Assembly: GCF_030413615.1 (NCBI RefSeq)
Contig: NZ_CP129236.1
Location: 666,001-730,000 of the forward strand
Reading direction: 5' to 3'
Origin: Planococcus shixiaomingii
GTDB lineage: Bacteria; Bacillota; Bacilli; Bacillales_A; Planococcaceae
DNA: 64,000 bases
Program-made: the position numbers and the translations under genes
In this document: positions 5,344 to 55,437 of the stretch, piece by piece
Layout of the letters: each line of letters begins with the position of its first letter
Numbering within the stretch: position 1 is the stretch's first letter
Notes under the pieces: generated by a model
The model's database searches: none
Told to the model about the DNA's origin: nothing
What the model saw: the letters and a program-made list of their open reading frames with translations, nothing else

Positions 5344-6010
5344 GGATTTCTTGAGAAGCGTCTCTCCAAAAGCGAAGATTAAAAGCAAGAGGGAAGCTGT
5401 TCGCTGCAGCGAACAGCCATTGGATCGCTTTGTATGTGAAAGAGAGGTTCGTTGGATTTTCTACCGACGCTTTTTTCTCTCTTACCTGCATTCTTCCGAT
5501 TTCTACCGACAGTTTGGAGGTTTCTACATGCATTGTTTAGTTTTCTATCGACACTCTTCGCATTTCTACCTGCATTTCTATTCAAACCTCCCTCCAAAAG
5601 AAAAGTTCAAAATCATAAATGGATGCTTTTCGCCAAGGCGAAAAGCGAACAAGATCAGAGATGCTTATTTTGATATGAAGAGTTCTCTAGATTCTCTACC
5701 TGCACTCTTTCAATTTCTATCGACGTTTTTGAGGTTTCTACATGCATGGTTCAGCTTTCTACCGACACTCTTCGTAATTCTACCTGCAGTTCTGTTCAAG
5801 CAGCTCTCCAAAAGCAAAGTTCAAAACCATAAATGGATACTTTTCGCCAAGGCGAAAAGCCAGTAACATCAAAGAAATTATAGGTGGAAGAGGATTCTCT
5901 AGATTTTCTAACGACGTTTATTCGGTTTCTACAAGCATTATTCGTTTTTCTACCTGCACACTTCAACTTTCTACCGACACTTTTCGTAGTTCTGCCTTCA
6001 TTCTCTATAC
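5344..6010 (-). repeat. 21-bp phased array locus R1 (three blocks, minus orientation)
   Basis: No gene is seen between 5320 and 6067. The stretch holds three blocks, each starting with CTCTCCAAAAG and a palindrome (5396-5420 GCTGTTCGC type; near 5621 and 5840 CTTTTCGCC type), then contiguous 21-bp units. Unit starts are 5458, 5479, 5500, 5521, 5542, 5563; 5693, 5714, 5735, 5756, 5777; and 5905, 5926, 5947, 5968, 5989. Each begins TTTCTAC or a near variant on the plus strand, that is, ends GTAGAAA on the minus strand. This is the only one of the seven loci in minus orientation. Confidence 0.85.
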
Positions 6011-6067
6011 GCACGTTGCATGTCCTCAACGAAAACCGGGTATAGCACCAAAAAGGGGTGCATACGA

Positions 6068-6514
6068 ATGGCTTTTGATTATGATTTGGATTATGAAAAT
6101 TTAGATTTGCGGAAACAGCCGGAGCTGTACCGTGTGGGGAAAGGCGAGCAGGGCGTTTTGCTTGTTGAGCCGTATAAGAGTGAGATCTTGCCGCATTGGC
6201 GCTTTAAGACGCCGGAGATTGCGCAGGAGTCGTGCGATAAAATTTATGAGATGTTCGAAGAGTACCGCAAGCAGGATGATTTTGTAGGCATGGACATGGC
6301 GCGGAAGTTCATTCAGATGGGCTATACGCGGGCGCGCCGCTACACCAATTACAAAGGCGGCCGCAAGTATAACGAGGATGGCACGATCAAAGAGCGCAAC
6401 ATCGATCCGGTGAAGGCGGAGTCGGCGGCCATTTTCAAGAAGAAGTGGGATGAAATCAGGGAAGACCAAGATTACTTGGCACGCAAGAAAAAGCACCAAA
6501 AAGAATTTGGATGA
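6068..6514 (+). CDS. DUF4385 family protein
   Basis: A 148-residue soluble protein. The N-terminus (FDYDLDYENLDLRKQPELYR), the core VGKGEQGVLLVEPYKSEILP followed by HWRFKTP, and the Arg/Lys-rich middle (GYTRARRYTNYKGGRKY) match what I know of DUF4385, a conserved family without an assigned function. The C-terminus is a charged helix. The ATG at 6068 follows AAGGGGTG by eight bases; the longer frame to 6020 runs into repeat DNA and is not used. It is a single gene between array R1 and a terminator. The family call is good; the function is unknown. Confidence 0.8.
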   Translation: MAFDYDLDYENLDLRKQPELYRVGKGEQGVLLVEPYKSEILPHWRFKTPEIAQESCDKIYEMFEEYRKQDDFVGMDMARKFIQMGYTRARRYTNYKGGRKYNEDGTIKERNIDPVKAESAAIFKKKWDEIREDQDYLARKKKHQKEFG

Positions 6515-11067: not shown

Positions 11068-12788
11068 TTAAAATCCTGAAAAACTTAACTGTCTACAAAT
11101 GGTTTATTGCCGTAGTCGTCGTTCTCGTTTTCGTCCAATCGATGGCGGATCTTTATTTGCCGCGTTTGATGGCGGACATTATCGATAACGGCGTTGTCAC
11201 TGGAAATACCCCGTATATTTGGAAAATTGGCGGCATCATGCTGCTGGTGTCAGCGGTAGGTGTGATCGCTTCGGTCATTGCGAGCTTTTATTCGGCTAGG
11301 GCTGCGATGGGGTTAGGGCGTGATTTGCGCCGGCGGGTTTTTAACCATGTCGGGAAATTCACGTTGCAGGAATTCGATAAAGTCGGCACGGCGTCGCTCA
11401 TTACTCGGACGACGAACGACATCACCCAAGTCCAGCAAGTGGTTATCATGATGCTGCGCATGGTCATCAGCGCTCCGATCATGCTGGTGGGCGGGCTAAT
11501 TCTCGCGATTTCGCAAGACGCCAAGCTGTCGCTTGTGATTTTAGCGGCAATGCCGGTGCTTGCCGGATCAATCATTATGATTTTCAAAAAAGGGATGCCG
11601 CTGTTCCAGGAAGTGCAAAAACGCTTGGACCGGCTGAATTTGGTGCTTCGTGAAAATTTGACGGGCATCCGCGTTATCCGCGCATTCAACCGCGAAGCGG
11701 AAGAGCAAGTGCGCATGACGAAAGCGAACCGTGATTTGACGAACGTGTCGATCCAAGTGAATAGAATCATGGCGTTCATTATGCCGGTCATGATGCTCGT
11801 CATGAACTTGACGGTCGTCGGCATCATTTGGTTTGGCGGCTACCGCATCAATAGCGGCGCCATGCAGATCGGTGAGTTAATGGCATTCATCCAATACGTC
11901 ATGCTGATCATGTTCGCGCTCGTTATGGCATCGGTCATGTTCATCATGATTCCGCGCGCGGCTGTATCAGCGAACCGCATCAATGAAGTGCTCGAAATGG
12001 AACCTTCTTTTGTTGATGATGGGACACAAAAAGCGGACCGCGAACGCGGCACGCTGCAATTTGACGATGTGACGTTCAGTTATCCAGGCGCCGAAAAGCC
12101 GGCGCTGTCGAATATCTCGTTTTCTACAAGACCGGGAGAAATCACCGCCATTATCGGCGGGACCGGATCAGGGAAAACGACACTCGTTAATTTGATTCCA
12201 CGCTTTTATGAAATTACGAGCGGCGCCATCCGTGTCAACGGCGTCGATATCCGCGAAGCGTCGCAGGATGAAGTGCGCTCGAAACTCGGTTTTGTGCCGC
12301 AAAAAGCCATTTTGTTCACCGGCACGATTGCGGACAATATCCGCTTCGGCAAGCAAGATGCCAGCGAAGAGGAAATCGAACATGCGGCACGCGTTGCGCA
12401 AGCTACAGATTTTATTGAACGGATGCCGGAAGGCTACAATTCGGAAATCGAGCAAGGCGGTTCGAACTTGTCGGGCGGCCAAAAGCAGCGCTTGTCAATC
12501 GCCCGCGCTTTGATCCGAAAACCGGATTTGTATGTGTTCGACGACAGCTTTTCAGCGCTCGACTACAAGACCGATGCACGTTTGCGCTCAGCATTGAAAA
12601 GCGAGACGACAAACGCGACAGTGCTACTGGTTGCACAGCGCGTCAGCACAGTGGTCGACGCAGACCGCATTATCGTCTTGGAACAGGGCCGGATTGCCGG
12701 AATGGGCACGCACGAAGAGCTGCTTGAGACCAACGGCGTCTACCGTGAAATCGTGCTATCGCAGCTGACAGAGGAGGAAATCGCATGA
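11064..12788 (+). CDS. ABC exporter subunit 1 (degenerate ATP site), YfiB-like
   Basis: A 574-residue half-transporter: six membrane helices (to about residue 310), then a nucleotide-binding domain. Walker A GGTGSGKT is at 365-372 and the signature LSGGQKQR near 475. The catalytic Glu after Walker B is Asp (D494 in YVFDDS) and the switch His is Gln (Q525 in VAQRVST), the pattern of the non-canonical partner in heterodimeric exporters such as TM287/288 and BmrCD. Lengths of this pair (574 and 616) match B. subtilis YfiB/YfiC best. Overlaps both neighbours by four bases (ATGA). Exported compound unknown, probably drugs or lipophiles. Confidence 0.88.
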   Translation: MIKILKNLTVYKWFIAVVVVLVFVQSMADLYLPRLMADIIDNGVVTGNTPYIWKIGGIMLLVSAVGVIASVIASFYSARAAMGLGRDLRRRVFNHVGKFTLQEFDKVGTASLITRTTNDITQVQQVVIMMLRMVISAPIMLVGGLILAISQDAKLSLVILAAMPVLAGSIIMIFKKGMPLFQEVQKRLDRLNLVLRENLTGIRVIRAFNREAEEQVRMTKANRDLTNVSIQVNRIMAFIMPVMMLVMNLTVVGIIWFGGYRINSGAMQIGELMAFIQYVMLIMFALVMASVMFIMIPRAAVSANRINEVLEMEPSFVDDGTQKADRERGTLQFDDVTFSYPGAEKPALSNISFSTRPGEITAIIGGTGSGKTTLVNLIPRFYEITSGAIRVNGVDIREASQDEVRSKLGFVPQKAILFTGTIADNIRFGKQDASEEEIEHAARVAQATDFIERMPEGYNSEIEQGGSNLSGGQKQRLSIARALIRKPDLYVFDDSFSALDYKTDARLRSALKSETTNATVLLVAQRVSTVVDADRIIVLEQGRIAGMGTHEELLETNGVYREIVLSQLTEEEIA

Positions 12789-14635
12789 CCCAAAAACAAC
12801 CTCAACGCAGCGGATCTGGGCACGGACCCGGCGGCATGATGATGGTGCCGGGCGAAAAGCCGAAAAACTTCAAGAAAACCTTGCGGCGCCTGCTCGTTTA
12901 TCTGAAACCGCGGCGCAACAAGCTGTTGGCGGTATTCGCGGCAGCCATACTTAGCACGATCTTTATGATCGTCGGCCCAAAAATTATGGGGCTTGCCATC
13001 ACAGAACTGTTTGAAGGAGCATACGGGAAATTTACCAACACTCCCGGCGCAACAATCGATTTTGACCGTATCGGCGAGATTTTATTGCTGCTGGCTGGGT
13101 TGTACATCGTCAGCAGCGTGTTCAGCTATATCCAGCAATACATCATGTCGACTGTCGCGCAAGACACGGTCTATGATTTGCGTGAAGATGTCAATAAAAA
13201 GCTCGAGAAACTGCCGCTCAAGTATTATGACTGCCGGCCGAACGGCGAAACACTGAGCCGCATGACCAATGACATCGATACAATTGGCAGCACGCTGCAG
13301 CAAAGTTTGACGCAGTTTATCACGTCGATTGTCACCATTATCGGGATTATTATCATGATGCTATCGATTTCGCCATTGTTGACGGCGATTGCGCTTGTTT
13401 CATTGCCGCTGTCGATTTTTGTTATCGGTCCGGTATTGAAACGGTCGCAAAAGCATTTCGCCAAGCAGCAAAAGTCGCTCGGTGAGCTGAACGGCCATAT
13501 TGAAGAAATGTACACCGGGCACCAAGTCGTCAAAGTGTTCGGCCACGAGAAAAAATCGGGAGAGCAGTTTGACGCCGTCAACGAAGAACTGTACCAAGCT
13601 GGAAGCAAAGCGCAGTTCATCTCTGGGATCATCATGCCGATGATGATGTTCATCGGCAACATCAGCTACGTGTTGATTTCGGTTGTCGGCGGGATATTGG
13701 TGACGCAGCGCGCCATTTCAATCGGTGACGTCCAGGCGTTCATCACTTATTCCAAACAGTTCACGCAGCCGATTACGCAAACCGCCAACATCGCAAATAT
13801 CGTCCAATCGACAGTCGCCGCAGCGGAGCGTGTTTTCGAACTGCTCGATGAAGGGGAAGAAGTTAAAGAGCAAACCGCTGTTACGCTTGAGCGTGCGGAA
13901 GGGGCTGTGGAATTTGAAGACGTCGATTTCGGCTATGGCGAAGAACTGTTGATTGAGGACATGAACATCCACGTCATGCCTGGCCAAACCGTCGCCATCG
14001 TCGGACCGACCGGCGCCGGCAAAACGACGCTCATTAATTTGCTGATGCGTTTCTACGAATTGAACGGGGGCACCATCAAAATCGACGGGCTCGACACGCG
14101 TGAAATGTCGCGTGACGATCTGCGAAAAAGCTTCGGCATGGTGCTGCAAGATACGTGGCTCTTTAACGGCACCATCAAAGACAACATCGCCTACGGCAAA
14201 AGCGGCGCCAGCGACGAGGAAATCTTCTCCGCCGCCCGCACCGCGCATGCCGATAACTTTATCCGCACCTTGCCGGATGGCTATGACACCATACTGAATG
14301 AAGAAGCGTCGAACATCTCGCAAGGCCAGAAGCAATTGTTGACCATCGCGCGCGCCGTCCTTGCCGACCCGCCGATCATGATTTTGGACGAAGCCACTTC
14401 AAGCGTTGATACACGCACCGAAGTCTTCATCCAGAAAGCCATGAACCGCTTGATGCAAGGCCGCACCAGCTTTGTCATCGCGCACCGGTTATCGACCATC
14501 AAAGACGCCGACTTGATCCTGGTCATGGACCAGGGCAAAGTCATCGAGCAAGGCACACACGCTGAGCTGCTCGAGAAAAAAGGCTTTTACGAAGAATTGT
14601 ATAATAGCCAGTTCGCTGAAAAAGTGGCTGGGTGA
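12785..14635 (+). CDS. ABC exporter subunit 2 (canonical ATP site), YfiC-like
   Basis: A 616-residue half-transporter that completes the heterodimer. An extra N-terminal tail rich in Gly, Gln and Met (about 35 residues) precedes six membrane helices. Walker A GPTGAGKT starts at residue 407; Walker B ends in the normal Glu (E536 in MILDEATSSVD) and the switch His is present (H567 in IAHRLST). Its own signature motif is altered, SQGQKQ in place of SGGQKQ, which is common in the subunit that provides the canonical Walker B. The stop is followed within a few bases by a strong terminator. Confidence 0.88.
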   Translation: MTQKQPQRSGSGHGPGGMMMVPGEKPKNFKKTLRRLLVYLKPRRNKLLAVFAAAILSTIFMIVGPKIMGLAITELFEGAYGKFTNTPGATIDFDRIGEILLLLAGLYIVSSVFSYIQQYIMSTVAQDTVYDLREDVNKKLEKLPLKYYDCRPNGETLSRMTNDIDTIGSTLQQSLTQFITSIVTIIGIIIMMLSISPLLTAIALVSLPLSIFVIGPVLKRSQKHFAKQQKSLGELNGHIEEMYTGHQVVKVFGHEKKSGEQFDAVNEELYQAGSKAQFISGIIMPMMMFIGNISYVLISVVGGILVTQRAISIGDVQAFITYSKQFTQPITQTANIANIVQSTVAAAERVFELLDEGEEVKEQTAVTLERAEGAVEFEDVDFGYGEELLIEDMNIHVMPGQTVAIVGPTGAGKTTLINLLMRFYELNGGTIKIDGLDTREMSRDDLRKSFGMVLQDTWLFNGTIKDNIAYGKSGASDEEIFSAARTAHADNFIRTLPDGYDTILNEEASNISQGQKQLLTIARAVLADPPIMILDEATSSVDTRTEVFIQKAMNRLMQGRTSFVIAHRLSTIKDADLILVMDQGKVIEQGTHAELLEKKGFYEELYNSQFAEKVAG

Positions 14636-14640
14636 AGGGG

Positions 14641-14674
14641 GCTGGCTCAGATTTTTATCTGAGCCAGCTTTTTA
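14641..14674 (+). terminator. Intrinsic terminator of the exporter operon
   Basis: Perfect 11-bp stem GCTGGCTCAGA/TCTGAGCCAGC, six-base loop, five T. Confidence 0.9.
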
Positions 14675-14689
14675 TATTTGAGGTGATTA

Positions 14690-15125
14690 TCGCTTTTCGC
14701 CTTGGCGAAAAGCATGCAAATTGATTTTGAACTTTTGCTTTTGGAGAGACGCTTGGATAGAATGCAGGTAGAACTGCGAAGAGTGTCGGTAGAAAGCTGG
14801 ATAATGCGCATAGAAACCACAAAAACGTCGGTAGAAATACAAAGAGTGCGGGTAAGAGCGAAAAAAGTGTCGGTAGAAAATCTTGAGAACACCTCTTCAT
14901 ATACAAAGGGAACCAAACAAGCAGTTGTGGCTTTTCGCTAAAGCGAAAAGCATGCATCTTGCCTTTGATCTTCGTTCTTAGAGAGATGATTTTCGAGAAA
15001 GTCATGTAGAAGCATGAAAAGGTCATGTAGAAAGCTTCGTTTGTCATGTAAGAACCGCGAAACTTCATGTAGAAACCTCAATACTTCATGTAAGAAGACG
15101 AAAACTTCATGAAGAAAATTTTTCC
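14690..15125 (+). repeat. 21-bp phased array locus R2 (both unit classes)
   Basis: No gene between 14675 and 15177. It opens with a perfect palindrome (14692-14713, GCTTTTCGCC arms), then TTTTGGAGAGACGCTTGGATA and six contiguous 21-bp units with GTAGAA, GTAGAA, ATAGAA, GTAGAA, GTAAGA, GTAGAA cores. A second palindrome follows (about 14932-14951), then five 21-bp units starting TCATGTA, and the closing TTCATGAAGAAAATTTT. No insertion or deletion breaks the 21-bp spacing within either array. Confidence 0.88.
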
Positions 15126-15177
15126 AACACTTCAGTATTGCGCATAAAACGAAACCTTATTATAAAAAATACAAACA

Positions 15178-15211
15178 AAAAAGGAACAGCTTTAATTGCT
15201 GCTCCTTCTCA
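15178..15211 (-). terminator. Terminator of the DsbA-YdhR operon
   Basis: Read on the minus strand: GGAGCAGC, a short loop, GCTGTTCC, then six T. It lies just after the monooxygenase stop. Confidence 0.75.
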
Positions 15212-17210: not shown

Positions 17211-17227
17211 ACTTAAACTAATCTATT

Positions 17228-17263
17228 GAAAAAGCTGTCCGCCTGAGCGGACAGCTTTTCTTT
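17228..17263 (+). terminator. Intrinsic terminator of the TetR gene
   Basis: AAAAGCTGTCCGC/GCGGACAGCTTTT, 13-bp perfect stem, loop CTGA, then a T-rich run. The stem resembles the GCTGTTCGC palindromes of the adjoining array. Confidence 0.85.
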
Positions 17264-17264
17264 T

Positions 17265-17880
17265 GCGCTCTTTGGAGAGAACTGTGGGTAGAACTTTGAT
17301 GAGTGTTGGTAGAAAGCTGGATATTGCGTGTATAAACTGCAAAAACGTCGGTAGAAATACAAAGAGTGCGGGTAAAAATAAAAACAGTGCGGCTAAGAAT
17401 AAAAACAGTGTCGATAGAAAACCTAGCGATACTGATCCTTTTGGCTTTTCGCCAAGGCGAAAAGCACCCATTATATAATTTTGACCTTTGTTTTTGGAGA
17501 GACGCTTGGATAGAAGTGCGTGTTGAACTACAAAGAGTGGCGGTAGAAAATTGAATAATGCATGTAGAAACTGCAAAAACGTCGGTAGAAATTTAAAGAG
17601 TGCGAGTAAGAAGAAAAAAGTGGCGGTAGAAATCCGATTAACACCTCTCCCGCTTACAAAGCGACACCAATTTAACGTAAAAGGCTGTCCGCCGTAGCGG
17701 GCAGCTTCCATCTTGCTCTTGATCTTCACTTTTGGAGAGAGGCATTTTGAGAAAGTCATGTAGAAGTGCGAACATTTCATGTTGAAAACATGATTTGCCA
17801 TGTAAGAACCGCAAAAGTTCATGTAGAAACCCGCAAACTTCATGTAAGAACCCGTAAACTTTATGAAGAAAATTTTTCCA
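17265..17880 (+). repeat. 21-bp phased array locus R3
   Basis: No gene between 17264 and 17904. There are two GTAGAA arrays. The first (from about 17287) has seven units because one unit is doubled (GGGTAAAAATAAAAACAGTGC then GGCTAAGAATAAAAACAGTG). A palindrome lies at about 17446-17467, a second array follows (from about 17515), then a GCTGTCCGCC/GCGGGCAGC hairpin (about 17684-17706), and five TCATGTA-class units ending TTATGAAGAAAATTTTT at 17880. On the minus strand the array leaves a 220-codon frame open, which I do not read as a gene. Confidence 0.87.
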
Positions 17881-17904
17881 GCCACTTACACTATCTCACT
17901 CACC

Positions 17905-20749: not shown

Positions 20750-20916
20750 CTTTTGCACCGCCTCTCTTTTCTGTATGAGCCACATAAGCTGTAGAGCGAG
20801 AAAACGGAAAAAAGCAGTTTTTTATTTATTTTATACTAGGTAACCTACAAAATCACGTTTTATATTTCTTAATATTCAGTCAAATGATACACTTAAGAAA
20901 AAGTGGAGGGGCTGCC

Positions 20917-22956
20917 ATGAATAAAAGATGGATCGGTCTGTTTTGGGTTGCAATCGTTCTTTTAACGGGTTGCCAGCCGGAAGAACAAGTAGCTCCGAAA
21001 GAGCCAGAAAAAGCGGAAGCGCAAGTTTCCCCTGAAGGCCGGCTTAAAGAATTCATCAGCCACTGGACGGCTGGGGATTTCGCCGAAATTTACGCCGAGT
21101 ATTTAACGGAAGGCACAAAAGAGGCGTTTGGTGAAGACGTGTATGTTGACTGGCAAGAACAATTGAAAGAGGATTTGGATGCTACAAGCATCTCCATTGA
21201 TTATACGAAACCGGAAGAAGAGGCCAAGTGGACTCCGGAAGAACCGGCCGATTTTCCAATTGCTGTGGATATAGCTACGGTAGCGGGGCCGGTGCAGTTT
21301 GAAAAGACGTTAACGCTGCTTTTTGAAAACGGTGACTGGTTTGTCGAATGGGACCCGTCGTTCATTTTCCCGCAGCTTGAAGAAGGGGATAAGGTCAAAA
21401 CGGAAATTACCAAGCCGGAACGCGGCGAAATTTTGGACCGCAACGGCAAAGGAATCGCCATTAACGGCACCGGCTATGAAATTGGCATCATCCCAGGCGA
21501 TTTCGAAGAGGACAAAAAAGAAGAACTTGCGAAGCTGCTAAATACGACGCCAACCGCAATTGACCGCCAGCTGAACCAAAGTTGGGTGCAGCCGGACTTT
21601 TACGTGCCGATCGCTAAAGTGGCGAAGGGGAATAAGGAAAAACTCGATAAGATCTTTGCCATTCCGGGCACCGAGCGCCGGGAAGTGCCTCTGCGTGAAT
21701 ATCCGTATGGCAAAGCGCTGGCTCATGTGTCAGGCTTTATCGGGCCGATCACCGCGGAGCAATTGGAGGAGTTGAAAGAAGAAGGCTATACGGCAGAAGA
21801 TTTGATCGGCCGCCAAGGCTTGGAGCGTTCGCTTGAAGAACGGCTGCGCGGTGAAGAAGGCGTGCGCATCGTCATTGAAAAAGCGCGAAGCGCAGATGAA
21901 ACCATCACAGCGGCTGAAAAAGAGCCGAAACAAGGCGACATCATCACGTTGACGATCGACGCCGATTTGCAAAAAACGGTGTACAACGCCATGGATGGCA
22001 AAGCGGGAACGAGTGCAGCCGTCAACCCCGACACCGGTGAAACCTTAGTGCTCGCCAGTTCACCGGGCTACAATCCGAACGAATTCATCTTGGGCATGAG
22101 CGGCAGCCGCTACAGCAAATTGCAGAACGATCCGCTCAATCCGCTGTTCACCCGTTTTGCGGCTTCGTATGCACCCGGCTCGGCAATCAAACCGGTAATC
22201 GCGGCGATCGCTTTGGAAGCGGGCACACTCGACCCGGACAAAGGCATGGATATAAAAGGCAAGACGTGGCAGAAAAAAGGCTGGACCAATTACCGGGTAG
22301 CTCGCCTGCATGACGACGCGCCGAATCCAGTCGACTTGAACACGGCGCTTGTCTATTCAGACAACATCTACTTTGCACGCCAAGCGCTGGAGATGGGACG
22401 CGAAACACTCATTGAAGGGCTGGAAAGTTTCGGTTTCGGCGAAGAGTTGCCGTTTGAAGGCTTGAACGTAACCACGTCACAAATTTCGAATGACGGCCTG
22501 ATCACGTCAGAAGGCCAGCTTGCCGACACGTCATTCGGACAAGGGCAGATGCTGACGAACATTCTGCACTTGGCAACGATGTATGAACCTTTCCTGAACG
22601 GCGGGATGATGTATAAACCAGTGCTGTTTGAAGAAGACCAAAAAGCGCAAGTATGGAAAGAAGAGCTGGTGAGCGCTGACAACGCCGAAACGATACGAAC
22701 CAGCATGCGAAACGCCGTCACCGACGGTTTTGCAAAGTCAGCAGACCTGAAAGACATCCCGCTTGCCGGCAAAACCGGAACCGCGGAAATAAAAGCCCGG
22801 ACGACAGATAAAGGAAAAAACCACGGCTATTTTGTAGCCTATAACGAAGATGCTCCGGATTTTATCCTCGCGATGATGATAGAGGATATTGGAAATGACA
22901 GCAGCGACAAAGTGGCGAAGATGGCAGCGGAAGTCTTTAAAGAAAGAGATAAATAA
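20917..22956 (+). CDS. pbpC: Class B penicillin-binding protein with MecA-type N-terminal domain (PBP3-like)
   Basis: A 679-residue transpeptidase that cross-links peptidoglycan on the outer face of the membrane. It begins with a lipoprotein-like signal (LLTGC, Cys19), then an NTF2-like MecA_N domain (about 35-150, RLKEFISHWTAGDFAEIYAE), the dimerisation domain (ERGEILDRNGKGIA) and the transpeptidase domain. Active-site motifs are Ser422-A-I-Lys (PGSAIKP), Ser481-Asp-Asn and Lys619-Thr-Gly. Architecture and length fit B. subtilis PBP3 and staphylococcal PBP2a relatives, often low in beta-lactam affinity; resistance here is not shown. GGAGGGG precedes the ATG. Confidence 0.88.
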   Translation: MNKRWIGLFWVAIVLLTGCQPEEQVAPKEPEKAEAQVSPEGRLKEFISHWTAGDFAEIYAEYLTEGTKEAFGEDVYVDWQEQLKEDLDATSISIDYTKPEEEAKWTPEEPADFPIAVDIATVAGPVQFEKTLTLLFENGDWFVEWDPSFIFPQLEEGDKVKTEITKPERGEILDRNGKGIAINGTGYEIGIIPGDFEEDKKEELAKLLNTTPTAIDRQLNQSWVQPDFYVPIAKVAKGNKEKLDKIFAIPGTERREVPLREYPYGKALAHVSGFIGPITAEQLEELKEEGYTAEDLIGRQGLERSLEERLRGEEGVRIVIEKARSADETITAAEKEPKQGDIITLTIDADLQKTVYNAMDGKAGTSAAVNPDTGETLVLASSPGYNPNEFILGMSGSRYSKLQNDPLNPLFTRFAASYAPGSAIKPVIAAIALEAGTLDPDKGMDIKGKTWQKKGWTNYRVARLHDDAPNPVDLNTALVYSDNIYFARQALEMGRETLIEGLESFGFGEELPFEGLNVTTSQISNDGLITSEGQLADTSFGQGQMLTNILHLATMYEPFLNGGMMYKPVLFEEDQKAQVWKEELVSADNAETIRTSMRNAVTDGFAKSADLKDIPLAGKTGTAEIKARTTDKGKNHGYFVAYNEDAPDFILAMMIEDIGNDSSDKVAKMAAEVFKERDK

Positions 22957-31626: not shown

Positions 31627-31735
31627 AACCTTTTAGTAGCATAGAAAATAATAGACGAAGGGGCATCTCTGGCACAATTTACGGTTTTCGGCCGCTTGAT
31701 TGAAGGGGGAAAGAGCCACCGGTCTTTGAGAGGGA
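31627..31735 (+). pseudogene. Fossil of the 3' end of a lacI gene
   Basis: In the frame of GH13 copy B the DNA reads NLLVA-stop-KIIDEGASLAQFTVFGRLIEGG. The end of the intact LacI protein (from residue 308) reads NLLLEKINDEKAVPRQITVS then SRLIERG. After one extra codon, about half of the residues agree, and nucleotide similarity continues through the spacer and ribosome site (GCTTGATTGAA, TTGAGAG) into the GH13 start. The TAG at 31642 and lack of upstream coding sequence show that it is dead. Confidence 0.7.
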
Positions 31736-31740
31736 TAGAT

Positions 31741-33360
31741 ATGAACAAAAAATGGTGGAAAGAAGCAGTTGCTTATCAAGTATATCCACGCAGCTTTAAA
31801 GATTCCAATGGGGATGGCATCGGGGATATCAACGGTGTTACAAGCAAGTTGGATTATATAAAAGAGTTAGGGATTGATGTCATCTGGTTAAGCCCGGTGT
31901 ACAAATCCCCGAACGATGACAATGGCTACGATATCAGTGATTACCAGGACATCATGGCGGAATTCGGGACGATGGAAGATTTCGACCGTTTACTCGATGA
32001 AGTCCATGCAAGAGGCATGAAACTGATTGTCGATTTGGTGATTAACCACACGAGCGATGAACATCCGTGGTTTATTGAATCCAAATCGTCGAAAGACAAT
32101 CCGAAGCGGGACTGGTACATTTGGAGCGACGATCCGACCAATTGGGAAAGCATTTTCGGCGGGCCGGCTTGGGAATGGGATAAAGAAACAAAACAATATT
32201 ATTTGCATCTGTTTTCGAAAAAGCAGCCGGACTTGAATTGGGAAAACCCAGAGGTGCGGGAAGCGTTGTTCGATATGGTCAATTGGTGGCTGAAAAAAGG
32301 AATCGACGGTTTCCGCGTTGACGCCATTTCCCACATTAAAAAAGATATAAGTGACATCCATGATCCTGAACAAAAACTATACGTCCCGGCATGGGATAAG
32401 ATGATGAATGTCGATGGCATTCAGCCGATGCTCGAGGAACTGCGTGATAAGACGTTTGCCAATCATGACATCATGACAGTTGGCGAAGCGAACGGCGTCC
32501 ATGTCGGGGACATTGAAGAGTGGATCGGCGAAAAAGACGGCAAATTCGATATGGTGTTCCAGTTTGAAAGCTTAGGCTTATGGGATACTGACGAACGAAC
32601 CGGCATCAACGTGCCGAAACTGAAAGAAGTGCTGACGCGCTGGCAAAAAGGCGTTGAAGGCAAAGGATGGAATGCCTTGTTTGTCGAAAACCACGACAAG
32701 CCGCGTGTTGTATCGACCTGGGGGAATGACAAAGAATATTGGCGGGAAAGTGCGACGGCGATTGCCTGCATGTACTTTTTCATGCAAGGCACGCCGTTCA
32801 TCTACCAAGGCCAGGAAATCGGCATGACAAACGCACCGTTTGCAGAAATAGAACATTACAACGACATCCAAACACATAATCTTTACCATAACAACTTGGC
32901 GGGCGGCATGGCCCACGAAGCCATCATGACGCTTCTTGGAGCGAAAAGCCGTGACCACTCACGCACGCCGATGCAATGGGATGCAAGCTTCAATGCCGGC
33001 TTTACCGGGGCATGGCCGTGGCTCATGATCAACCCGAACCACGACAAGATCAACGTGGAAGCGCAGCAGCATGATCCGCATTCAGTGCTCTCATTCTATA
33101 AACAAATGATTTGGCTCCGCAAACAAATGGACGTTCTTGTTTACGGCACCTACGAACTTCAAGACATTGGCCACGAGGCTGTCTACGCGTATACGCGGGA
33201 AGACGAAAACGAAAAAGTGCTAATCGTCTCCAACTTGGCGCAATTTGCTTGCGAATGGAACGCGCCAGAAGACGCCACGTTACTATTGGCCAACTATGAA
33301 GACGTAAACCCAACTCAATTGTACCCGTACGAAGCCCGGGTTTATAAGCTAGTTAAATGA
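31741..33360 (+). CDS. GH13 alpha-glucosidase, alpha-1,4 type (copy B)
   Basis: A 539-residue tandem duplicate of the gene at 29421, with the same catalytic positions: Asp194 (GFRVDAISHIKK), Glu249 (VGEANG), Asp319 (ENHDKPRV). Ala195 again indicates alpha-1,4 preference. Differences cluster at the surface and near the end of the barrel (NLYHNNLAGGMAHEAIM against NLYYYNLSEGMEHDAIM in copy A), so fine specificity may differ. ATG at 31741 with GAGAGGGA upstream. An in-frame extension to 31696 is the fossil of a lacI 3' end, not part of the enzyme. A strong terminator follows. Confidence 0.88.
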   Translation: MNKKWWKEAVAYQVYPRSFKDSNGDGIGDINGVTSKLDYIKELGIDVIWLSPVYKSPNDDNGYDISDYQDIMAEFGTMEDFDRLLDEVHARGMKLIVDLVINHTSDEHPWFIESKSSKDNPKRDWYIWSDDPTNWESIFGGPAWEWDKETKQYYLHLFSKKQPDLNWENPEVREALFDMVNWWLKKGIDGFRVDAISHIKKDISDIHDPEQKLYVPAWDKMMNVDGIQPMLEELRDKTFANHDIMTVGEANGVHVGDIEEWIGEKDGKFDMVFQFESLGLWDTDERTGINVPKLKEVLTRWQKGVEGKGWNALFVENHDKPRVVSTWGNDKEYWRESATAIACMYFFMQGTPFIYQGQEIGMTNAPFAEIEHYNDIQTHNLYHNNLAGGMAHEAIMTLLGAKSRDHSRTPMQWDASFNAGFTGAWPWLMINPNHDKINVEAQQHDPHSVLSFYKQMIWLRKQMDVLVYGTYELQDIGHEAVYAYTREDENEKVLIVSNLAQFACEWNAPEDATLLLANYEDVNPTQLYPYEARVYKLVK

Positions 33361-33374
33361 ACAGAAGATAGATG

Positions 33375-33412
33375 AACCAGCATTGCCCTTTGGGCGATGC
33401 TGGTTTTTTATT
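33375..33412 (+). terminator. Intrinsic terminator of the GH13 operon
   Basis: AACCAGCATTGCCC/GGGCGATGCTGGTT (one mismatch), loop TTT, then six T. The same AACCAGCA-type terminator recurs after the FGGY kinase (54680). Confidence 0.85.
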
Positions 33413-33415
33413 AAG

Positions 33416-33552
33416 TAGGGAGAGAATGCAGGTAGAAAAGTGAAGAGTGTAGGTAGAAACATGAAAAACATCGATAGAAAATTTAAAAGTGCGGGTAGAA
33501 ACTCGGAAAGAGCAGGTAGAAACGCGAAAACTTCATGAAGAAAATATTTCTA
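33416..33552 (+). repeat. 21-bp phased array locus R4 (short)
   Basis: Starting after GGGAGAGAATGCAG, five contiguous 21-bp units follow from 33432 with cores GTAGAA, GTAGAA, ATAGAA, GTAGAA, GTAGAA, and the array ends in CTTCATGAAGAAAATATTT. It has no palindrome. It is the shortest complete array and joins the GTAGAA class directly to the closing TTCATGAAG unit. 33553-33630 shows nothing more. Confidence 0.85.
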
Positions 33553-34149: not shown

Positions 34150-34178
34150 TGTTCAAGCAGGCAATCATTCAAAAGAAT

Positions 34179-34216
34179 AAACCCAGCATCGTCCTATGGG
34201 CGGTGCTGGGTTTTTG
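34179..34216 (+). terminator. Intrinsic terminator
   Basis: AACCCAGCATCGTCC/GGGCGGTGCTGGGTT (imperfect), then TTTTT. Confidence 0.8.
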
Positions 34217-34217
34217 T

Positions 34218-34606
34218 TGGAGTGAAAAAGTGCAGGTAGAAACTTGGGGAGTGCGAGTAGAAAGCTGGGAAATGTATGTAGAAAACATAAAAACGTCGGT
34301 AGAAATCGAAAGAGTGTCGGTAAGAGGGAAAAAAGCGTCGGTAGAAAATATAGAGAACGTCTCTTCTTCGTATTAAATAAACTGTGTGATTTGTCCTTAT
34401 GGCTTTTCGCTTTGGCGAAAAGCATCCAGATATGGTTTTGAGCTTTGCTTGTGGAGAGAGAAGTGGATAGAAATACGTGTAGAGTAGGGAAACATGAAAG
34501 TTCACGTAGAAACTTAGAAAGTTCATGTAAGAATCTAAGAAACTCATGTAGAAACAAGAAAAGTTCATGTAAAGAGGAAAGAACTTCATGAAGAAAATTT
34601 TTCCAG
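34218..34606 (+). repeat. 21-bp phased array locus R5
   Basis: Six 21-bp units from about 34234 (GTAGAA, GTAGAA, GTAGAA, GTAGAA, GTAAGA, GTAGAA), the palindrome at 34402-34423 (GCTTTTCGC arms), then TCATGTA-class units from about 34497 and the closing TTCATGAAGAAAATTTTT at 34606. The fifth unit again has the swapped GTAAGA core. No gene lies in 34150-34658; minus-strand frames of up to 149 codons here are by-products of the array. Confidence 0.87.
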
Positions 34607-39423: not shown

Positions 39424-39876
39424 TGGAGGAAATTTGAAGAGTTCATGTAGAAGTGGGGAAACTTCATGAAGAAAATATTGCCAACTCCACATGCTCTAAT
39501 TTGAGTCGACACCAATTGGCCTTGAAGGCTGTTCGCAACTGCGAACAGCTTCCATATTGATTTTGAACTTTGATCGTGGAGAAACGCTTGGATAGAATTG
39601 CAGGTAGAACAACGAAAAGTGTCGATAGGTAGCCAGAGAACTTCTCTTCCACTACTAAGTGATCTCTAAGATCTTAATTGCTTTTCGCCATGGCGAAAAG
39701 CAGGCATATATGCTTTTGAACTTTTGCTTTTGGAGAGACGAATGAATAGAAACGCAGGTAGAACTCCAAAAAGCGTCGGTAGAAATACGGAAAGTTCATG
39801 TAGAAATCCATGGAATTCATGTAGAAACCTCAAAAGTTCATGTAAAAGCCCAAAAATTTCATGAAGAAAATTTTGG
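39424..39876 (+). repeat. 21-bp phased array locus R6 (degenerate, two parts)
   Basis: No gene in 39320-39913. First a short run with TTCATGTAGAAG and the closing CTTCATGAAGAAAATATT (about 39438-39481). Then a GCTGTTCGC/GCGAACAGC palindrome (about 39527-39551), two broken GTAGAA units (to about 39630), the palindrome 39680-39701 and an array with GCAGGTAGAA, GCGTCGGTAGAA and TTCATGTAGAA units ending TTCATGAAGAAAATTTT at about 39876. Two closings in one locus suggest two joined copies, both shortened. Confidence 0.8.
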
Positions 39877-39913
39877 AAAACCGAATATCACTTCACAATC
39901 ATCACCCCAACAA

Positions 39914-53168: not shown

Positions 53169-54677
53169 TTGGAAAACGAGCCGCTGATTATGGCAATTGA
53201 TATCGGCACCACGTCGGTGAAATGCCTAATAATAGATGAGCAAGGACTGACAATTAATACAGCTTCAAAGGGTTATCCGATTTCAAGCCCCTATCCGAAT
53301 TGGCTTGAACAGAATCCGGAAGATTGGTGGACAGCAGCAGCGCAGACAATAATGAAATGTTCAAAAGAGCTCAATCTTGAACAAGTGGCGGTAGTTTCGT
53401 TGTCGGGGCATATGAGCGCGCCGGTGTTGATCGGCCAAGAAGGCAAGCCGTTGATGCCAAGCATTTTGATAGCGGACACCAGAACATCCAAACAGACTGC
53501 CTATTTGCGGAGCCATTTTTTGAACAAGTTCACAACGTCTACAGGAAACGAGCCTCTGGATGCTTTTACCGCATCCAAACTACTGTGGGTGAAAGAAGAA
53601 TACCCGGAAGTGTTGAAAAAAGCGACGAACTTCTTTTTTCCGAAAGACTATATCCGGTATAAGCTAACGAATAAAATCGGAACCGATCCTACGGATGCAG
53701 GGAATAGTCTGCTGTTCGATTTAGCTGGAGAAGACTGGAACTGGGAAATGATTAATGAACTCGGGTTGCCAGTTTCTCTTTTTCCGGAGCTTTTTGGGAC
53801 TGCTTCGGTCTTTGGACAAGTTACAGAAGAAGCAGCTCGGCAAACGGGGATGAAAGCGGGAACGCCCGTTGTGACGGGCGGCGCAGACATGGCATGCAGC
53901 CAAGCGGGTACAGGGGCGACGAAGCATGGAACCATGGCTATAACATTGAGCACTTCAGGACAAATCGTTATGGGAGTCTCAAAACCCGAAGCCAACGGAA
54001 TCGGCAAAGTGACATACCATCCCGGCGCAGCTGCCGGTTCGGTTTATGCGATGGGGTCTGTTTTTGCCGGCGGCCTCGGAGTGGAGTGGGCCTATAAGTT
54101 ATTAAACAATAAACGAAGCATGGATGCATCGGATTATGAAGAACTTGCGCGGCTGACGGAAGAAATGAAAAAATATCCTGTTGGAAGCAACGGCTTGTTG
54201 TTTTTGCCGTTTTTAGTGGGAAGCGGCTCGCCTCATTTCAATGCAAAAGACAGAGCTTCATGGATCGGTTTAACGCTAAATCAAGACAAAGCCCTGTTGC
54301 TTCGTTCCGTTTTGGAAGGCATCACATACAATATTGTAGAAAACGTAAACCTCATCAAAGGGATGGGAACGGAAATCGAAAAGGTATTTCTTGGAGCTGG
54401 CGGCAGCCGAAACCCCGTATGGTGCAAAATGATTGCGGATGCACTCGGTATGGATGTTTCGGTGTTAGCGAATCGTGATGGGTCAGCCCTTGGTGCGGCA
54501 ATCATTGGCGGAGTGGGCATCGGCATGTTTTCGTCGATTGAAGAGGCTGTAGAGAAACTGGTGAAAAGTGAAACAACAATCTCTTTCGATGTTGAAAATC
54601 ACCTGCAATACAAAAAGTTTTTTGCGAGGTACCAAAATATTTATCAGGCGTTAAACGAACATGCCGTTTCAAGGTAG
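53169..54677 (+). CDS. FGGY family carbohydrate kinase (XylB-like)
   Basis: A 502-residue sugar kinase. N-terminal phosphate-1 motif AIDIGTTSVKCLIIDEQG; SGHMSAPVLIG; FGGY C-terminal motifs VTGGADMACSQAGTG and FLGAGGSRNPVWCKMIADAL (adenine-binding). It phosphorylates a pentulose, hexulose or polyol with ATP in the cytoplasm; xylulokinase- or gluconokinase-like by layout, but the sugar is unknown. TTG start after AAAAGGAGGTG. Last gene of the cluster; a strong terminator follows directly. Confidence 0.86.
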   Translation: MENEPLIMAIDIGTTSVKCLIIDEQGLTINTASKGYPISSPYPNWLEQNPEDWWTAAAQTIMKCSKELNLEQVAVVSLSGHMSAPVLIGQEGKPLMPSILIADTRTSKQTAYLRSHFLNKFTTSTGNEPLDAFTASKLLWVKEEYPEVLKKATNFFFPKDYIRYKLTNKIGTDPTDAGNSLLFDLAGEDWNWEMINELGLPVSLFPELFGTASVFGQVTEEAARQTGMKAGTPVVTGGADMACSQAGTGATKHGTMAITLSTSGQIVMGVSKPEANGIGKVTYHPGAAAGSVYAMGSVFAGGLGVEWAYKLLNNKRSMDASDYEELARLTEEMKKYPVGSNGLLFLPFLVGSGSPHFNAKDRASWIGLTLNQDKALLLRSVLEGITYNIVENVNLIKGMGTEIEKVFLGAGGSRNPVWCKMIADALGMDVSVLANRDGSALGAAIIGGVGIGMFSSIEEAVEKLVKSETTISFDVENHLQYKKFFARYQNIYQALNEHAVSR

Positions 54678-54679
54678 AT

Positions 54680-54716
54680 GAACCAGCACTGTCCTTTGGG
54701 CAGTGCTGGTTTTTTG
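54680..54716 (+). terminator. Intrinsic terminator of the GntR cluster
   Basis: AACCAGCACTGTCC/GGGCAGTGCTGGTT, loop TTT, six T; close relative of the terminator at 33375. Confidence 0.88.
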
Positions 54717-54719
54717 TGT

Positions 54720-55437
54720 GGTAAGTGCAGGTAGAAAATCCAGAGAACTTTTCCTCTGTTAGAAAGTGAAGCTGTTTATCCTTATCGCTTTTCGCCATAG
54801 TGAAAAGCAGGCATCTATGGTGTTAAACTTTTGCTTTTGGAGAGACGCTTGAATAGAAATGCTGGTAGAACTATGAAGAGTGTCGGTAGAAATCCGAATA
54901 ACACCTGTATAACCCGCAAAAACGTCGGTAGAAATCAAAAGAGTGCAGGTAAGAATTACAAAAACATCGATAGAAATCTAGGGAACTCTTCTACTATCAA
55001 GTGATCCCACTGCTCCTAATCGCTTTTCGCTTTGGCGAAAAGCAGGCATCTTATGCTCTTGAACTTTGATCGTGGAGAGACGATTGAATAGAAGCGCATG
55101 TAGAACTACAAAGAGTGTCGGTAGAAAACTAGGTAACACCTGTAGAACCGGCAAAAACGTTGATAGAAATCGAAACAATGCAGGTAAGAACCACGAAAAT
55201 ATCGGTAGAAAAAGGAGAACCTTCTCTCTCGTTTCAACAAGACAAAAGATGGAAGCTGTTCGCCACGGCGAACAGCTTCCATCTTGCTTTTGATCTTTGT
55301 TTATATAGGAATGCAGGTAGAACTCCAAAAAGCGTCGGTAGAAATACGAAAAGTACATGTAGAAATACAAATAAGTCATGTAGAACCCCAGAAAGTTCAT
55401 GTAGAAGCTTCAAAACTTCATGAAGAAAATTTTGTAA
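54720..55437 (+). repeat. 21-bp phased array locus R7 (largest)
   Basis: No gene between 54717 and 55437. Seen: a broken start (GCAGGTAGAAAATCC, to about 54770), a palindrome (about 54788-54809, imperfect), an array from about 54865 to 54990 with an irregular second half, a perfect palindrome (55022-55043), another array (about 55092-55222), the palindrome GCTGTTCGCC/GGCGAACAGC (about 55255-55277), and a mixed array with TTCATGTAGAA units ending CTTCATGAAGAAAATTTT at 55433. Three successive blocks make this the longest locus. Confidence 0.85.

Follow-up and report, generated by a model that had tools for sequence, protein, structure and literature searches.

Arrays of 21-bp units in the window

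The DNA considered here, referred to as the window, is a stretch of 64,000 nucleotides from Planococcus shixiaomingii (contig NZ_CP129236.1, positions 666,001 to 730,000). A sequence-only reading had picked out seven intergenic loci at which units with a GTAGAA core recur every 21 bp, and direct inspection of the window confirmed arrays at all seven (Table 1). The array at 5344-6010 lies on the minus strand and the other six on the plus strand. The pattern GTAGAA-N15-GTAGAA has 25 matches within the window, compared with 0.01 expected in shuffled sequences. When the window was scanned without regard to motif (self-match of at least 0.50 over 84 bp, lags 13-35), 15 segments were found at lag 21, one at lag 27 and none at the other 21 lags; Markov-1 resampling of the window gave a mean of 0.01 segments at lag 21. 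Thirteen of the 15 segments are the reported arrays, and the remaining two (11766-11871 and 13315-13422) are threshold-level and fall inside ORFs of an ABC-transporter operon.

Table 1. Arrays and their modules, in window coordinates
Position	Strand	Structure	Neighbouring feature
5344..6010	-	Three unit blocks (5974-5932, 5783-5741, 5569-5464); hairpin starts at 5860, 5646 and 5417, with no GTAGAA units following the hairpin at 5417	Array upstream of DUF4385 gene (6020-6514, +)
14692..14929	+	Type A module; after hairpin (14692-14713) and linker, units from 14768; GAGAACACCTCTTC as closing stretch	
14930..15137	+	Type B module; after hairpin (14930-14951) and linker, units from 15006; CTTCATGAAGAAAATTTTTCCA at the right end	
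17234..17885	+	Three modules: hairpins 17234, 17444, 17684; units from 17288, 17543, 17760	
33416..33552	+	Single block of about five units without a linker of its own	Directly after terminator of 31696-33360
34222..34606	+	Type A units from 34236, then type B module: hairpin 34402, units from 34506	
39440..39880	+	Unit at 39447 with closing sequence; short module (hairpin 39528, unit 39604); module (hairpin 39680, units from 39758)	
54717..55437	+	Unit at 54731; modules with hairpins 54787, 55022, 55255	Unit 54731 after terminator of 53169-54677

The units had been described as contiguous and nearly always free of insertions and deletions. The step is indeed nearly always 21 bp, the exceptions in the window being a 20-bp unit at 17606 and a 27-bp step near 34479, but the unit blocks are interrupted at six of the seven loci. 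These six are modular, with two to four blocks each, and only 33416-33552 departs from this plan. A typical module begins with a hairpin, followed by a linker of about 50 bp, a unit block, a closing stretch and then the next hairpin. Most blocks are headed by a hairpin whose 9-bp stem is GCTTTTCGC, GCTGTTCGC or GCTGTCCGC with its complement, and the right ends of modules frequently read CTTCATGAAGAAAATTTT. A BLAST search of the genome at E 0.001 with the type A module, of about 230 bp, gives 34 matches, one of which is the query, and in the units of the type B module TTCAT precedes GTAGAA or GTAAGA. Because the order of units is kept between modules, with unit n of one aligning with unit n of another, the modules seem to have been duplicated as wholes. 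The terminators that precede arrays at 33365-33405, 34175-34215 and 54680-54720 have in common the hairpin CCAGCAYTGYCCTTTGGGCRRTGCTGG or a near form of it, suggesting that terminators were copied too.

The scanned proteins that flank the arrays are transporters, enzymes, regulators and unknowns. The DUF4385 gene to the right of the first array is present in all 46 genomes of the genus. The longest array lies at the 3' end of a xylulokinase-like gene (53169-54677), which at E 1e-150 was found in only one of the 46 genomes, and this array therefore adjoins an accessory gene. Elsewhere in the window, 20884-22956 encodes a penicillin-binding protein with its best match in the PBP4(5) family, at a score below the curated cut-off of every listed family.

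As had been reported, the arrays lie outside annotated-looking genes, but long antisense open frames cross five of the seven loci. Among them are frames with heptad-like FLPTLF peptides at 17223-17885 (-), 5351-5866 (+) and 14655-15068 (-). Some frame is open over at least 85% of the length in 11 of the 15 lag-21 segments, the other four being closed. The antisense peptides resemble one another as the units do, and the frames are probably a consequence of purine-rich units combined with a period that is a multiple of three. A coding origin, in which 21 bp would represent seven codons, was rejected on three grounds: steps of 19-20 bp occur; two arrays in the relatives G006 and G008 have no frame open throughout; and a sample of ten species, described below, contains 14 lag-21 segments that are closed in all frames.

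Over the whole genome there are 67 GTAGAA pairs that are 10-40 bp apart. The 21-bp distance accounts for 46 of them, and distances of 19, 20, 22 or 23 bp for none, so that exact-motif pairs show no scatter around 21 bp; seven of the other 21 pairs come from one repetitive stretch at 2.44 Mb. Among copies collected by module similarity, identity is 0.94-0.99 at unit positions 2, 3, 6 and 15 and only 0.38-0.49 at positions 8-11 and 14. In overlapping alignments, arrays have five indels per 1862 substitutions and the remaining module sequence (linkers) has 30 per 368; 15 pairs formed from six modules give 14 per 504 and 18 per 201 respectively. Indels per substitution are thus rarer inside arrays than in linkers, which disfavours plain passive drift, in line with the earlier argument. 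Between sister species with near-identical flanks, the number of units and the spacers differ and the cores and the 21-bp step stay, as judged by eye. Unit logos, which like the exact-motif surveys are biased by their GTAGAA seed, show in most groups a preserved core with a species-specific flank and the greatest variability at positions of about 10-16. The exceptions are the genome of the window, which also keeps A at 13 and 15, and a single array of Bacillus EB106 that is conserved throughout.

One period shared by different motifs

Three GTAGAA cores at 21-bp steps were found in 23 of 261 genomes of the order, representing eight of 19 genera, and the reversed control pattern was found in six; the hits of G085, G127 and G130 look coding by sequence. 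Among the hosts whose arrays lie outside long ORFs are Neobacillus, Jeotgalibacillus, Sutcliffiella, Paenisporosarcina, Chryseomicrobium, Metasolibacillus and Planomicrobium stackebrandtii. The bases between cores vary by genus; what most genera keep is the core and a few flanking bases. A scan of genome contigs returned at least 120 stretches; among those listed, 52 have a match outside ORFs of at least 120 codons, and the 32 of 120 that were read in detail are nearly all from Bacillales. A scan of viral contigs also returned at least 120 stretches, of which, among those listed, 95 have all matches inside ORFs of at least 120 codons and 25 do not; three of these 25 were read. A blastn search of plasmid and phage records with 14620-15180 gave no match.

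Arrays are carried by other Bacillales, but the 21-bp step is not the only one there, as steps of 19, 20, 40 and 61 bp recur in some genera. In several genera (L101, L133, L191, L193, L199) an irregular 19-bp (or 40-bp) unit builds higher-order repeats of 82, 103 and 124 bp. Palindromes of the GGTGCCTGTCACC type and GTGCGTGCCTGGCACGCAC lie near the arrays of L181, L189 and L114, and look like another interspersed repeat family.

The period is also found with other motifs. The region upstream of the DUF4385 gene was compared over 29 lags in 30 species fetched from the 46 genomes of the genus; lag 21 comes out best in 16, and another lag leads in 14. Only some of these regions have GTAGAA; others carry GTAAGA or GTAACA, GTATAA after CGG, GTTAA, TAGAG or TACGA. 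The exact triple-GTAGAA search recovers five of the 46 genomes of this genus. For the motif-blind scan, ten species that lack the triplet were sampled over 320 kb, mostly in the zone syntenic with the window and picked mostly at 0.49-0.68 Mb, where arrays were expected. When segments in ORFs of 150 codons are filtered out, this sample retains 26 periodic segments as noncoding, and 25 of these are at lag 21. This filter passed at least two likely short lysine-rich coding repeats (G027 L438 19717 and G045 L439 16551), and we therefore applied a strict filter that requires all six frames to be closed, under which 14 of 14 segments are at lag 21. Segments labelled as coding are divided between lag 21 (eight) and other lags (17). 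Lag-21 segments outside long ORFs occur in eight of the ten species, with motifs that include TTTACATGAAC, AAATACGC and TTGGGCATAAA; G027 and G045 both also have a segment just upstream of DUF4385.

The enrichment is weaker elsewhere. In 800 kb of G006 and G008 outside the zone, the strict filter leaves 21 noncoding segments, four of them at lag 21, a weak excess, and in 823 kb from other genera the counts are eight of 53 with the strict filter and 16 of 70 with the looser one. Single arrays that look convincing nevertheless occur there, for example with TGGCGGATA in G246 and GAGCAACCA in G126. In the latter genome (L469-L471) the 21-bp motifs fall into at least two families, GAGCAACCA and CGCAAATTCAGTG. 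In 50 kb of Escherichia coli there was no noncoding segment at lag 21.

Placement, mobility and candidate partners

To describe the positions of arrays relative to genes we used 106 Bacillales arrays of at least three units, of which 92 were scored on simple ORF calls (eight had far neighbours and six lay at an edge). Tandem genes enclose 39 arrays that run along the gene direction and 17 that run against it (p 0.005 if independent), and 33 lie between convergent genes. Three, as a raw count, are found between divergent genes. From the tandem and convergent counts, arrays are mostly at gene 3' ends, and by eye they often begin just past the terminator of the upstream gene. Judged by gene strands and by eye, the orientation of an array relative to its neighbouring gene can be opposite at orthologous sites, which fits an element that acts as DNA.

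Of six genomes that were looked at, five have their arrays crowded on one chromosome arm. In the genome of the window, where dnaA is at base 122, the interval from 0.39 to 0.78 Mb contains 31 of the 46 pairs. Corresponding distances from dnaA are 0.61-1.42 Mb for 62 of 71 pairs in G155 and 0.33-1.12 Mb for at least 65 of 75 pairs in G158; crowding is absent from G112, whose 14 pairs are scattered. In two species the counts include ORF segments. G006, with a different motif, has nine segments (3.2 kb) in 40 kb at 0.59-0.63 Mb. Samples from elsewhere, 620 kb in all, contain 17 (3.3 kb), and the richest of these samples is at 0.69-0.71 Mb from dnaA on the other arm. G008 has eight segments in 40 kb at 0.59-0.63 Mb, compared with seven in 180 kb elsewhere, four of which are at 0.60-0.62 Mb from dnaA on the other arm. 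This mirror-image group could alternatively stem from inversions around the origin. In twelve zone stretches of six relatives, 18 of the 51 window ORFs are matched at 55% identity or more.

Chryseomicrobium (L333-L340, L114, L181, L204) carries a dispersed element that has TTAGTTTCCATAATATGACTTCG as its left end, contains a few GTAGAA units and has its right end near CGCTCAG; in one genome its copies have sharp ends in common at unrelated sites. Because of these copies a mobile origin was kept as a rival explanation. Neither a terminal inverted repeat nor a target duplication was seen by eye in the aligned copies. An empty-site comparison of sister loci, which had been fetched because they bear arrays, gave no clean junction. 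We also considered proteins that might act on the arrays. A Y1 (RAYT/IS200-type) transposase was rejected as partner: 13 of 18 array-bearing genomes have matches, as do 11 of 18 others, and the genome of the window has none. The array-bearing genomes that lack a match are G000, G034, G114, G154 and G155. No transposase was present among the 26 distinct window proteins scanned. RefZ was likewise rejected, as none of 21 genomes tested had a match above the family cut-off.

Possible functions and known repeat systems

The spacing has been kept where the motif has changed, which suggests a docking platform for a putative DNA-binding protein. The sequence-only reading had proposed either such a phased binding platform or intrinsic curvature; the retention of the 21-bp step through changes of spacer and motif supports the platform indirectly, and the curvature alternative is not supported by the model described below. 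Selection seems to hold the geometry, two turns of B-DNA, more firmly than the sequence. We therefore tentatively regard the arrays as species-specific families of intergenic, iteron-like arrays for a putative oligomeric DNA-binding protein with drifting specificity, a reading that falls a little short of being probable. Under this model, a motif that is short and asymmetric (GTAGAA in the window, flanked by preferred bases on either side) and placed every 21 bp, or two helical turns, would bring its copies to one side of the duplex and leave much of the remaining unit free to vary. A putative oligomeric, sequence-specific protein may then dock cooperatively along this face. The geometry of the oligomer would fix the step, and the base preference of the protein, and hence the motif, would drift between species. 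Given the position of arrays at gene 3' ends and their crowding on one arm in most of the genomes looked at, the putative complex would more likely organise or mark a chromosome region than regulate single promoters. Against the platform reading is the fast change of unit number between sister species, as in a satellite or a mobile repeat. The sharp-ended Chryseomicrobium copies, the other steps that recur in some genera, the weak lag-21 excess outside the zone, the scattered pairs of G112 and the 14 species in which another lag leads upstream of DUF4385 also count against it.

In a broader form of this proposal, the arrays would constitute a chromosome-landmark system of Bacillales, in which a putative oligomeric protein reads phased arrays in a one-arm zone and a smaller mirrored group, the geometry being conserved and motif and specificity co-evolving. 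We consider this extension doubtful.

The main rival holds that the arrays are non-autonomous mobile repeats of the BOX kind, whose modules disperse and amplify, whose 21-bp units are iterated sites for the moving enzyme, and whose position at 3' ends results from selection against harmful insertions. The many genomic copies of the 230-bp module, the two common ends of the Chryseomicrobium copies at unrelated sites, the three of 92 arrays between divergent genes and the fast turnover of units all fit this explanation. It is nevertheless rather unlikely in our judgement, given aligned copies in which no terminal repeat or target duplication was seen by eye, Y1 matches that are nearly as frequent in genomes without arrays and missing from that of the window, and window proteins that include no transposase among those scanned. 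Independent element families also do not predict one period with differing motifs in an orthologous region. Both readings could belong to one history, in which a mobile element spread sites for a resident protein. Neutral minisatellite-like DNA, in which slippage duplicates units and a 21-bp step set once is kept by descent alone, would account for copy numbers that differ between sister species with nearly identical flanks and for the higher-order repeats of 82, 103 and 124 bp. We judge it improbable, as slippage has no known reason to settle on 21 bp with different motifs across species, cores stay where spacers diverge, and indels per substitution are rarer than in linkers, although the second count differs only about threefold.

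The start of many arrays just past a terminator and the excess of tandem arrays that run along their genes would be expected of an RNA-level 3' UTR element, carried on a transcript that reads through the terminator and bound by an RNA-binding protein. However, 17 of the 92 arrays run against both neighbours, orientation differs at orthologous sites, and a 21-nt step presumably has no special meaning for single-stranded RNA. Moreover, no fold signal was detected in 12 array blocks (mean z -0.32), a test that covered the blocks alone, and the short hairpins between blocks are structured; Rfam gave no match at gathering score within the window. An element of this kind thus appears very improbable. 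Least credible is intrinsically curved DNA with phased A-tracts as the active feature. A-rich stretches do recur in step with the units of the window's genome, but the curvature predicted by a wedge model for the 12 array blocks, with single z values of -1.0 to 1.2 and a mean of 0.25, does not exceed that of shuffled sequence.

If the period is selected, it would point to a putative chromosomal DNA-binding protein with a conserved assembly geometry and a fast-changing sequence preference, and the crowding would tie this protein to chromosome organisation outside the known systems of ParB, Noc, SMC and RefZ. Mobile arrays, by contrast, would represent a repeat family whose hallmark is spacing and not sequence. 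Annotation based on similarity misses such a family, as is evident from the few genomes recovered by the triple-GTAGAA search compared with the eight of ten triplet-less species that are positive when motif is ignored.

Searches of Rfam and of open-licence PMC papers brought up no description of such arrays. Among the established systems closest to them, plasmid replication iterons are direct repeats of 17-22 bp to which Rep proteins bind on one helix face. Like the arrays, they are short direct repeats at about two helical turns with a preserved core and a freer spacer; the match is by spacing only. The arrays differ in being dispersed chromosomal copies whose motif changes from species to species, and no replication gene is present among the scanned proteins that flank them. 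REP sequences, which are associated with RAYT transposases, have a GTAG foot. The arrays are also intergenic and dispersed, with hairpins nearby and a GTAG tetramer in the unit, but by eye the unit is no palindrome, and the window's genome has no Y1 transposase match.

BOX repeats are modular, and the arrays resemble them as modular composite repeats dispersed in intergenic DNA. The BOX, RUP and SPRITE elements of Streptococcus pneumoniae are presented as small interspersed repeats that are patchy between species, judged parasitic and notable for extensive secondary structures (PMC3049150). In contrast, the array blocks have no fold signal and their 21-bp period occurs with several motifs. The RefZ binding motifs of Bacillus are five single near-palindromes, not arrays; both chromosome arms carry them, and their positions with respect to oriC are conserved (PMC6657595). 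Both they and the arrays are DNA marks on chromosome arms, the RefZ motifs being single and the arrays repeated. Also comparable are the TAACTGA direct repeats of Beggiatoaceae, described as intergenic, patchy heptamers of unknown function that are proposed binding sites, apparently run head to tail without variable spacers and are mostly close upstream of start codons (PMC4679880). These repeats and the arrays are both short intergenic direct repeats, and the arrays are set apart by their position at gene 3' ends and by their 21-bp step.
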